Source of the DNA: Cyclobacteriaceae bacterium
GTDB taxonomy: Bacteria > Bacteroidota > Bacteroidia > Cytophagales > Cyclobacteriaceae
Reading direction: 5' to 3'
DNA: 42,892 nt
NCBI GenBank assembly: GCA_026989505.1
Contig: JALSJF010000248.1
Coordinates: forward strand, 1 to 42,892
Position 1 is the first letter of the stretch; each line of letters starts with the position of its first letter. Of this stretch, positions 26,418-29,930 are shown piece by piece. A program made the position numbers and the translations under genes. The notes under the pieces are model-generated. The model was not told where the DNA came from. It did no database searches and was given only the letters and a program-made list of their open reading frames with translations.

Positions 26418-27752
26418 TTACAGGGCTATACGTTTATTGGCCAGTTTGATGAACCGCAGGAAGACCCAGATGGCGGCTATGGTCAGGCCAAAAAATATAC
26501 CGAACCAAATACCATTGGCCCCATAACCATATTGAAAGGCCAGAATGTAAGCCAGGGGCAGGGCAATTACCCAATAGGCAAAAAAGGTAATCATAGTGGG
26601 TATTTTTACATCTTTCATCCCCCTGAGGGCGCCCAGCATGATAACCTGCACACCATCCGAAAGCTGAAACAAGGCCGCGATGATAAGCAATGAAGAAGCA
26701 ATTTCAATTACGGCTACCTCATCGTTATACAACAACGGCAGATAATTACGGCCGGCAATAAAAACTATTGCAAAAAAAGTCATCAGACTTGCCCCCATGC
26801 CCACCAGGGTAAGGGCAGCCCTTTTCATGGTTTTATAGTTTCGTTTACCCAACTGATTGCCCACCCGGATGGCGGCAGCCGCCCCCAGGCCGGAAACCGT
26901 CATATAGGTAATGGAAGCCAGGTTGATGGCAATCTGATGGGCCGCCTGGGTTACCGCCCCTATCCAGCCCATCATCAGGGCTGCCATGCTAAAGGCCCCG
27001 ATCTCAAACACAAACTGCAAGCCGGCCGGCACGCCTATGCGCAGTAAATCCCTGATCAGCTTTAAATCCAGGTTTTTTAACCCCATGCCCGATAAATAGG
27101 GTTTAAAACGGTGGTTGGTCAGTACATAAACAACCAAGCCCACCGCCATTACCGTGCGGGCAATTAACGTGGCAATACCTGCCCCCAGCAGGCCCAGGGC
27201 CGGGAAACCAAATTTACCATAGATAAGTATATAGTTCAGGATAATATTCAACACGTTCATACTCACCGATACCACCATCGGCACCTTGGTCATCGATAAG
27301 CCCTCGCTGAACTGGCGAAAGGTTTGAAAAACCAGCAAGGGTATCATGGAAAAACCAATAACAAACATATAGGGAGTGGCCTGCTCCACCACGGCTGCCT
27401 CCTGACCAAAAAGGTGGAGGTAATTGGCCGCCACCATCACCAGGCCGAAAAGGACAATACCCAGCAGCGCATTCACGACCAGCCCATGGCGTAATACCTG
27501 GCCACACGCCTTTTTTTTTCCCTCGCCATCGGCAAAGCCAACCAGGGGGGTAATAGCAAACGATACCCCCAGGCCAAACGTCATAAAGAAGTAAAAGATG
27601 GCGTTGCCCAGCGAGGCCCCGGCCAGCGGGATATAGCCTACCTGCCCTACCATCATATTATCGGCCACGCCCACCATTACCTGCCCCAACTGGCTGGCCA
27701 TTACCGGCACAGCGAGGTTAACATTGATACGTAAGTGTTCTCTTATGGTCAT
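26418..27752 (-). CDS. MATE family multidrug/cation exporter
   Basis: The 444-residue protein is a polytopic membrane protein of about 12 helices with MATE signatures: VPVMASQLGQVMVGVADNMMVG in helix 1-2, GFSMIPLLVFQTFRQFSEGLSM, and an internally repeated second half starting LKLIRDLLRIGVPAGLQFVFE with TVSGLGAAAAIRVGNQLGK. It exports drugs or organic cations in exchange for Na+ or H+. ATG 27752 is used: it opens right at the first conserved segment, while an in-frame extension to 27986 runs antisense through rnhB. The downstream dipeptide epimerase suggests a possible link to peptide or muropeptide handling, though that is only context. Confidence 0.93.
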   Translation of the reverse strand: MTIREHLRINVNLAVPVMASQLGQVMVGVADNMMVGQVGYIPLAGASLGNAIFYFFMTFGLGVSFAITPLVGFADGEGKKKACGQVLRHGLVVNALLGIVLFGLVMVAANYLHLFGQEAAVVEQATPYMFVIGFSMIPLLVFQTFRQFSEGLSMTKVPMVVSVSMNVLNIILNYILIYGKFGFPALGLLGAGIATLIARTVMAVGLVVYVLTNHRFKPYLSGMGLKNLDLKLIRDLLRIGVPAGLQFVFEIGAFSMAALMMGWIGAVTQAAHQIAINLASITYMTVSGLGAAAAIRVGNQLGKRNYKTMKRAALTLVGMGASLMTFFAIVFIAGRNYLPLLYNDEVAVIEIASSLLIIAALFQLSDGVQVIMLGALRGMKDVKIPTMITFFAYWVIALPLAYILAFQYGYGANGIWFGIFFGLTIAAIWVFLRFIKLANKRIAL

Positions 27753-27831
27753 TTTACCGGCAACAGGGCGACAAAAATAGGGTAAAACCACGTAGCCGCT
27801 GGGCAAAATATGGTATTTTAGCCGCGGAATT

Positions 27832-28428
27832 ATGTTAGCGGCCCGATTTTCCCCCAACTTACGCGAGGCAGGCTGTGATGAGGCCGGACGCGGTTGTCTT
27901 GCCGGCCCCGTAGTGGCGGCAGCGGTAATATTGCCGGATAGTTTCACCCACCGGCAATTAAACGACTCAAAAAAGCTGTCGGCCAAAGCACGCCAGCAAC
28001 TGCGGATAATTATTGAACAGGAAGCCCTGGACTGGGCTGTAGCCTTTGTTGATAATCAGGAAATTGATAAAATCAATATTTTAAAGGCTTCCTTTCTGGC
28101 CATGCACCGGGCTGTTGAACAGCTCACCCGGAAGCCGGACTTACTGCTGATTGACGGTAACCGGTTTACCCCTTACCCCGGCATAGCCCATAAATGTTTT
28201 GTTAAGGGTGATGGCCGGTTTCTAGCCATTGCCGCTGCTTCCATCCTGGCCAAAACCCACCGCGATGAATATATGCAGCAACTTGACAAAAAACACCCCG
28301 GCTACGGCTGGGGGAAAAATATGGGCTACCCCACACAGGCACACCGCCAAGCCCTTAAAACCCTGGGGGTTACCTCCTATCACCGGCAGAGCTTTCAGTT
28401 ATTGCCACGGCAGTACGCGTTGTTTTAG
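27832..28428 (+). CDS. rnhB: Ribonuclease HII
   Basis: The 198-residue enzyme removes RNA from RNA-DNA hybrids and misincorporated ribonucleotides. The RNase HII signature EAGCDEAGRGCLAGPVVAAAVIL is present with the first two catalytic acids (Asp and Glu of CDEAGRG). LLIDGNRF supplies the third, and AAASILAKTHRDEYM the last Asp. The HPGYGWGKNMGYPTQAHRQAL segment near the end is also typical. Length is normal for the family. It is divergent from the MATE gene (79-base gap), and its 3' end abuts the heptanucleotide array. Confidence 0.97.
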   Translation: MLAARFSPNLREAGCDEAGRGCLAGPVVAAAVILPDSFTHRQLNDSKKLSAKARQQLRIIIEQEALDWAVAFVDNQEIDKINILKASFLAMHRAVEQLTRKPDLLLIDGNRFTPYPGIAHKCFVKGDGRFLAIAAASILAKTHRDEYMQQLDKKHPGYGWGKNMGYPTQAHRQALKTLGVTSYHRQSFQLLPRQYALF

Positions 28429-28603
28429 CGTTTGAAGCTGGGAGTTTGAAGTTCGGAGTTTTAAGTTTTAAGTTCGCAGTTGATGATGTAAATCGTAAAT
28501 CGCAACTCGTAACTCGTAACTCCTAATTCTTAACTCGTAATTCCTAATTCTTAACTCGTAATTCTTAACTCGTAATTCCTAACCCATCAACCGTAATCCG
28601 TAA
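28429..28603. repeat. Inverted heptanucleotide repeat array, 25 units
   Basis: Starting on the base after the rnhB stop codon, 25 consecutive heptads keep one phase. The left eight or so read AGTTNNN (for example AGTTTGA, AGTTCGG, AGTTTTA twice, AGTTCGC). The right ones read mostly CTCGTAA, TTCTTAA or TTCCTAA, equivalent to AACTCGT or AATTCTT. Left units on the minus strand read AACTNNN, so the array reverses orientation near 28480-28492 and could fold into a long imperfect hairpin. It ends a few bases before the moeA stop codon. It resembles the 7-bp STRR repeats described in cyanobacteria and has no coding potential. Confidence 0.85.
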
Positions 28604-28609
28604 TTCCCA

Positions 28610-29803
28610 TCATCTATATCCCCAGCACGGGAACACCTCCCCGGCTTTAAACGTATCTTTCCCTTGTGGCAGTTCCAGGAAAGCATCGGCTTCGGGCAGG
28701 TTGGCGAGATCACCCGAACCCTGCCCGGGGGCAGGCGTGGCCAAAAGCCGGCCGTGGTCATCAAAATGCAATTTTACCTGCAAAAAGTAGGTGAGGTTGG
28801 GTTTAAAGGTAAAATCTTCCGCCAGCACGGCCTTGGGGGCTTTGGGTTCCACGCCTGCCGAGCGGTATAAAAAGGGCACCACATAGCGGATGAGGCCCAC
28901 AAAACTCGACACCGGGTTGCCCGGCAAAGCAAATACCACCGCCTTTTTATACCGCCCAAACCAGAAGGGTTTGCCCGGGCGCTGGGCAACAAAATGAAAT
29001 AGCTTTTCTACCCCCAGTTCAGCCAGGATTTCCGGCACAAAATCCAGCTTGCCCTTTGATACCCCGCCACTCAACACCACGGCATCATAGTTGGCCAGGA
29101 TTTCTTTCAGCCCCTGGCGGATTTGCGCTTTATCATCGAGCAGATGGAAAGCCTTCGCTACAAATTTATGCGCTTGTAAAGCGGCTACCAGGGCGTGTAC
29201 GTTCGATTTTCTTATCTGATGCGGCAGTGGCATGGCCTCAATCTCCACCAACTCATCCCCGGTAGCAATTACCGCCACCCGGGGGCTGCGGGCCACGGTA
29301 ACCTCAACCCTGCCCACCGTAGCCAGAACGGCAATTTCAGCCGGGCCCAACACCCGGTCGGCCGCCAGGAGCACCGCCCCCAACTGGCGGTCAGCGCCTT
29401 GCAAATGTACATGCTGGCCCGGTTTTACCTGATGGCCGGCCCTGATGACCGCCTTGCCCCCGTTGAGGGTGACCTCCTCATACTTTACTACCGTATCGGC
29501 ATTAGCCGGCATCACCGCCCCGGTCATTACCTCTAAGCAACCATCACTGCCGGTGAGTGTCTTTTGCGGGGTGCCGGCTGCCGACAGCCCCTCAACCACA
29601 AATTCCCGCACCCCTTTTTCCCAGGCGGCAAATTGAATAGCGATGCCATCCATCATTACCCGGTTGAAAGGCGGAAAATCACGATCGGCCACCACCGCCT
29701 GTTTCAGCACCCTGCCCATAGCCCCGGCCAGTGGTATTGCTTCTGTGCCCAGGCCTAATAACGATGCCCCTATAACATTATCTGCTTCATTTACTGATAC
29801 CAT
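28610..29803 (-). CDS. moeA: Molybdopterin molybdotransferase
   Basis: The 397-residue protein inserts molybdate into adenylylated molybdopterin, the last step of molybdenum cofactor synthesis. Family features are an N-terminal VSVNEADNVIGASLLG segment, the RDFPPFNRVMMDGIAI motif (usual form: DxPxFDxSxMDGYA), TGAVMPANADTVVKYEE, GDELVE in the MoCF domain, the SGGVSKGKLDFVPEIL loop, and PGNPVSSFVGLIRYVVPFL. A domain-IV barrel follows. ATG 29803 is chosen; another ATG at 29821 adds six residues. No other molybdenum cofactor gene is adjacent. Its 3' end lies next to the heptanucleotide array. Confidence 0.95.
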   Translation of the reverse strand: MVSVNEADNVIGASLLGLGTEAIPLAGAMGRVLKQAVVADRDFPPFNRVMMDGIAIQFAAWEKGVREFVVEGLSAAGTPQKTLTGSDGCLEVMTGAVMPANADTVVKYEEVTLNGGKAVIRAGHQVKPGQHVHLQGADRQLGAVLLAADRVLGPAEIAVLATVGRVEVTVARSPRVAVIATGDELVEIEAMPLPHQIRKSNVHALVAALQAHKFVAKAFHLLDDKAQIRQGLKEILANYDAVVLSGGVSKGKLDFVPEILAELGVEKLFHFVAQRPGKPFWFGRYKKAVVFALPGNPVSSFVGLIRYVVPFLYRSAGVEPKAPKAVLAEDFTFKPNLTYFLQVKLHFDDHGRLLATPAPGQGSGDLANLPEADAFLELPQGKDTFKAGEVFPCWGYR

Positions 29804-29930
29804 AACCAAGCGTTTCGGCAAATATAATCAGAAGAAAGCGGCTACATTGCAACCATAATCGTATAAAACCATATCCATCGGCAATAAGCCAAAATCAACT
29901 ATCTTTACGCAACCAAAAACCAAAATCAAC

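Follow-up and report, generated by a model that had tools for sequence, protein, structure and literature searches.

The genes rnhB and moeA converge on a contig of a Cyclobacteriaceae bacterium (JALSJF010000248.1), and the DNA between their stop codons is a 7-base repeat almost end to end, whose direction reverses part of the way across. This raises the question of why an array in such a place should be inverted, and in particular whether its two halves form a transcription stop serving both genes or follow some wider rule for repeats beside genes. The locus was analysed within the whole stretch of 42,892 nucleotides, here called the window, and was compared with arrays elsewhere in the same draft genome, in relatives and in cyanobacterial plasmids.

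Two arrays between rnhB and moeA

The features of the locus are listed below; gene calls throughout come from our own codon-score script and not from annotation.

27832..28428, plus strand: rnhB, ribonuclease HII (198-aa ORF; PF01351, E 1.1e-41)
28430..28484, plus strand: left arm, AGTTNNN heptads, G-rich on the plus strand (G 17, C 4), outward from rnhB (lag-14 segment 28430-28481, score 20; AGTT 6, AACT 0)
about 28485..28487, strand not applicable: turn between the arms, with a shift of core register (AGTT at phase 2 mod 7, AAYT at phase 0 mod 7)
28488..28604, plus strand: right arm, AAYTCNT heptads, C-rich on the plus strand (C 31, G 10) and of ARTT type in the moeA sense (lag-7 segment, score 56, identity 0.75; AACT 6, AGTT 0)
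28610..29821, minus strand: moeA (403-aa ORF; PF03453, PF00994, PF03454), stop codon 28610-28612, 5 bp past the array

The rnhB stop at 28428 on the plus strand and the moeA stop codon on the minus strand enclose a gap of 181 bp, or about 25.9 heptads. Lag-7 identity over 28429-28603 is 0.685, compared with 0.27±0.03 in base shuffles (maximum of 5000, 0.381) and 0.375 in the next-best 175-bp stretch of the whole window, and the lag-7 segment runs on to 28604; TRF describes the array with 14-, 7-, 21- and 35-bp solutions. The original prediction of an array filling the gap is thus borne out, as is its reversal of direction. On the plus strand, AGTT recurs every 7 bases in the 55-bp left arm and is confined to it, while AACT or AATT recurs every 7 bases in the 117-bp right arm (AACT 6, AATT 5; units TAACTCG, TAATTCC and TAATTCT), and AACT is absent from the left arm. 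The further claim that one heptad phase is kept across the reversal does not stand: the period is constant, but the register moves at the turn, with 6 of 6 AGTT cores at one phase and 12 of 12 AAYT cores at the other. The arms have the ARTT/AAYT core in common and are scarcely alike at the other three positions. The gap therefore holds two arrays of opposite direction, not one, and when each is read outward in the sense of its own gene, G exceeds C in both, by 17:4 in the left arm (rnhB sense) and by 31:10 in the right (moeA sense). Upstream, a MATE-like ORF on the minus strand (26418-27986, from the first TTG) overlaps rnhB on the opposite strand; the gene caller starts it at 27752, and the longer TTG start is probably an artefact.

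Termination and the origin of the spacer

Inverted arms lying between convergent stops had been taken as a possible two-way terminator, in which the arms would fold in both transcripts and halt RNA polymerase, perhaps together with Rho. Several observations are compatible with such a role: the plus-strand RNA of the gap can make a long interrupted hairpin of -33.9 kcal/mol, a Rho gene is present in the genome, and T-runs follow some arrays elsewhere (L059, L298). However, many shuffled sequences fold as well. The plus-strand fold has a z of -1.5 and was equalled by 13 of 200 shuffles, that of the minus strand (-31 kcal/mol, z +1.08) was equalled by 178 of 200, and the best ungapped hairpins of two array segments reached p 0.12-0.13 against dinucleotide shuffles. 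A scan of 27800-29300 returned no terminator-like site in the gap, its sole site being at 29191 within moeA, with 2.4 expected by shuffling. The gap also lacks the T-tract after a stable hairpin that defines an intrinsic terminator, and an Rfam search of 28000-29000 that admitted E values up to 1 was empty. Moreover, the array is missing from a congener, and of the arrays elsewhere many have a single arm and others stand ahead of a start codon. Given the unremarkable folds on both strands and the absence of a T-tract, a scan site and an Rfam match, a bidirectional terminator is an unlikely explanation of the gap; with Rho encoded, Rho-dependent termination may still take place there.

In the congener, G001 of the same genus, rnhB and moeA are likewise convergent, and their frames overlap by 12 bp with no array between them (locus L042; rnhB stop at 2100, moeA stop codon 2089-2091). 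It follows that the spacer in the window species consists wholly of array and is absent in the congener. The earlier proposal of a spacer formed by slippage is plausible and is backed by this arrayless overlap, which does not polarise insertion against loss. The window's MoeA finishes at a YR, that of most relatives at the corresponding position or a few residues beyond, and that of the congener is five residues longer than the window's; from these ends, either the array state or the overlap state may be the older. The comparison is one between species, with the array present in the window species and absent in one congener.

A strict core pattern, four consecutive AAYTNNN units, matched the genome 11 times, always within the window array, and its reversed control pattern had no match. 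A looser pattern added arrays C25 and C244, and stretches sampled from the draft (287 kb of 3.51 Mb) added C110 and C180. These four contradict the refuting outcome named in advance, that the genome would hold no other 7-base arrays; with a period of 7 far above chance and further arrays in the genome, the gap array agrees in both respects with an intergenic heptanucleotide simple-sequence repeat. Three of the four, C244, C110 and C180, stop 4, 6 and 5 bp short of a start codon, and C25 has a stop 35 bp away and a start 58 bp away. The window array is the sole convergent-gap case among them, the context of C110 being incomplete. The core pattern also occurs in 24 of 29 relatives, which by itself is weak evidence, because by our own count the reversed control occurs in 20 of them.

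Polarity of arrays at gene edges

Our main result concerns the side on which the G lies: the G-richer strand of these arrays runs outward from the adjacent gene, at either end of that gene. Of 237 arrays, 108 with 7- or 8-bp units were no more than 30 bp from a gene edge, with one array kept per edge, L092 removed (same contig as L047) and no duplicated sequence among them. The G-rich strand pointed outward in 78, the reverse way in 21 and neither way in 9, and the outward:reverse ratio was 31:7 at starts and 47:14 at stops. Background intergenic segments divided 350:287 for the same polarity (Fisher p 5.5e-6, a value that, like our binomial ones, treats arrays as independent, an assumption that may fail for arrays from the same genome). 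In the sense of the gene, G exceeded C in arrays near stops by 32:10, compared with 164:134 in random intergenic segments, and C exceeded G near starts by 18:4, compared with 186:153. The ratio was 51:9 at a score of at least 18 and 94:33 when the limit was set at 60 bp.

The polarity is found across most of the material. In the window's own genome, all five array edges within 30 bp follow it. Ten sample groups follow it, G027 (1:4) and Nostoc UHCC (3:4) go against it, and the random stretches of the relative G010 (3:3) and Bernardetia (1:1) are even; Bacteroidota without G010 gave 36:9 with 3 ties. The rule was first formulated from the Bacteroidota sets; the one later test, on cyanobacterial plasmids picked for their match to the window array, gave 28:6 (5 ties) within 30 bp and 38:10 (6 ties) within 60 bp. 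Purine skew was a weaker descriptor (68:36), and T over A showed no such tendency (50:51). Among the few arrays at control lags (n=28; lags 7, 8 and 14 excluded), 10 followed the polarity and 15 went against it. Proximal and distal array halves had identities of 0.758 and 0.725 (p 0.15, 45 arrays), in which no direction of growth was seen.

Two candidate causes were set aside. Arrays without GGG or CCC retain the polarity (57:18, 9 ties), so quadruplexes are not required and cannot be the general cause. Stop codons supplied in all frames were a suggestive reason in G010; elsewhere, arrays within 60 bp of a stop divided into 8 sense, 5 antisense and 3 ties, and in the right arm beside moeA it is the antisense strand that is rich in stops (7 versus 15).

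Selection on untranslated regions could also shape the bias, if arrays were born in random orientation and survived only where the leader ahead of a start was poor in G or the trailer behind a stop richer in it. The bias at both kinds of edge agrees with such sorting, as does the scarcity of arrays in divergent gaps of G010 (1 of 27). Yet it accounts for starts better than for stops, and the division by sense-strand stops just given shows no consistent preference outside G010; we consider it improbable as the main cause. Our preferred reading is that such arrays grow, or are retained, in a direction tied to the coding edge.

Inverted arrays bear on another possible origin, in which a break in the gap was followed by extension of the 3' ends with the G-richer heptad, templated or by foldback, and the extended ends were joined like fused telomere arrays. 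Such end addition predicts a G-first order, which is what prevails: rows with two complementary periodic arms comprised 31 G-first, 9 C-first and 5 neutral cases (n=45, with the L047/L092 locus counted twice), or 30:9 without the duplicate (Fisher p 4.6e-4 against 183 ordinary intergenic hairpins, which lack the bias at 59 G-first, 73 C-first and 51 neutral). Inverted arrays of cyanobacterial plasmids were G-first in 12 and C-first in 4 of 18 (p 0.077 alone), and Rehm et al. 2015 (PMC4692102) report 70 and 75 GGGAATC pairs in convergent orientation in two Xanthomonas genomes. Against it, a search of the genome for Ku, the one enzyme sought, found none, which makes classical end joining unlikely; and by itself it fails to account for one-armed arrays that follow the nearest gene edge. 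End addition is thus a very unlikely origin of the window array. Among classed inverted rows, 14 of 41 lie in convergent gaps (p 6e-4), or, by our own count, 8 of 32 when nine G010 rows are left out.

In the window, the inversion is the gene-edge polarity obeyed at both gene ends. Since outward polarity at both genes of a convergent gap requires the halves to be inverted, the gap is probably explained by two gene-anchored heptad arrays that meet head-on, one starting where rnhB ends and one where moeA ends; in each, the G-richer (ARTT) strand runs 5' to 3' away from its own gene. The heptad units may have arisen by replication slippage, and a likely history is that two arrays grew in this way, each under the gene-edge polarity, until an inverted array occupied the convergent gap. 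With no promoter in the gap, such an array may be tolerated there, and it would have no dedicated terminator function. The gap array resembles a spacer of a known type, born of slippage and subject to a directional rule, more than a transcription stop made for the purpose. A broader form of the rule, that 7-8 bp intergenic arrays of distant phyla have one polarity whatever the gene direction and without need of G-runs, is put forward tentatively. If true, these arrays would be the products of a directional process, one that recognises coding edges or is stopped by them, rather than neutral microsatellites, and inverted arrays in convergent gaps would be the two-sided outcome of that process.

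Known heptad repeats and arrays in relatives

Cyanobacterial STRR are tandem heptads in intergenic DNA with CCCCART-like units, and the comparison with them made in the original prediction is fair in kind, both being tandem intergenic heptads, but not in unit. In Rehm et al. 2015 (PMC4692102), the GGGAATC and GGGGA(C/T)T repeats of Xanthomonas and Nostoc are described as quadruplex-forming, a polarity preference is stated for such heptads, and quadruplexes are discussed with no regulatory role found. Those units bear G-runs, whereas the window arms are rich in AT. A single GGG run and no repeated G-tract occur in the left arm, C is more abundant in the right arm, and in neither do the tandem units supply the four G-runs or more of a quadruplex heptad. 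MacGregor 2015 (PMC4679880) describes TAACTGA arrays upstream of starts in Beggiatoaceae, Cyanobacteria and five Bacteroidetes, and reports that among longer simple repeats heptads are the commonest in many bacteria. As in the window array, the 7-bp unit begins TAACT and the location is mostly intergenic, often just upstream of starts, where the TAACTCG dialect described below also stands; unlike them, the window array has TAACTCG/TAATTCT units and lies between two stop codons, and so has neither the unit TAACTGA nor a position just upstream of a start codon. A partial literature search yielded no statement that we recognised of a polarity for AT-rich heptads. The polarity is common to AT-rich and G-rich units, to starts and stops, and to Bacteroidota and cyanobacterial plasmids, and is reported in Xanthomonas. 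Quadruplex formation is thereby no longer a necessary cause, and models of array origin or retention gain a simple, checkable constraint; the polarity is the part of these findings worth following. The array showed little homology to mobile DNA, a phage search giving two weak matches and a plasmid search mainly cyanobacterial arrays.

In a seven-genome sample of 2.29 Mb (own genome included, six relatives by 20-kb stretches), segments scoring at least 13 outnumbered those of one dinucleotide shuffle by 39:4 at lag 7, 25:0 at lag 8 and 14:2 at lag 14; lags 6 (23:0) and 15 (24:2) were also in excess, and lag 1 (25:36) was not. The exact dialect TAACTCGTAAYTCNTAAYTC occurs in 6 of 118 family genomes, and the TAACTCG dialect lies upstream of starts in G092, G061, G046 and G120. 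Array length differs at one gene edge, the folD start, which an array of the TAACTCGTAAYTCNTAAYTC dialect precedes in G092 (27 bp, L316 1498-1524) and in G061 (180 bp, L319 1465-1644), two genera whose FolD proteins are 81% identical (PF00763/PF02882 in the G092 protein), and a TAACTCGTAAYTCNTAAYTC dialect array stands before ftsZ in G046.

Whether such arrays favour convergent pairs, as had been asked of them, depends on the genome. They do in G010, whose dialect is ARTTGAC: among 27 sites examined (38 sites counted in 70 pattern matches), 15 were convergent, 11 tandem and 1 divergent, with convergent gaps making up 12.3% of intergenic bases (p 9e-8). They do not in 134 loci anchored on rnhB or moeA, a set that includes both L047 and L092 (same contig) and the copies L291 and L294, where 4 of 27 intergenic arrays were convergent against 14% expected. 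In the seven-genome sample 9 of 38 arrays were convergent, 5 of them from G010 and 2 being the window itself. A general convergent preference was therefore rejected, the effect being strong in G010 only. An arrangement like that of the window occurs in another order, in L114 (Bacteroidales UBA1182), where two convergent genes flank ARTTGAG units that lie in the sense of each gene.

Some further repeats were noted in these genomes. G010 also carries octad arrays of the CACAAAGA/TCTTTGTG kind as inverted G-first pairs (L191 6209-6241, L196 6598-6651, L201 6921-7002, L313 1312-1377), and several of its heptad arrays (L296, L299, L301, L310) have beside them some 40 bp of similar, non-repeat sequence (GATTTCATAATCGCCG...GGTGTA-like). 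In G017, heptad arrays are followed or flanked by octad arrays in a recurring order (L171 17154-17263, L187 16152-16258, L188 5091-5205), a series that looks like a dispersed composite element.
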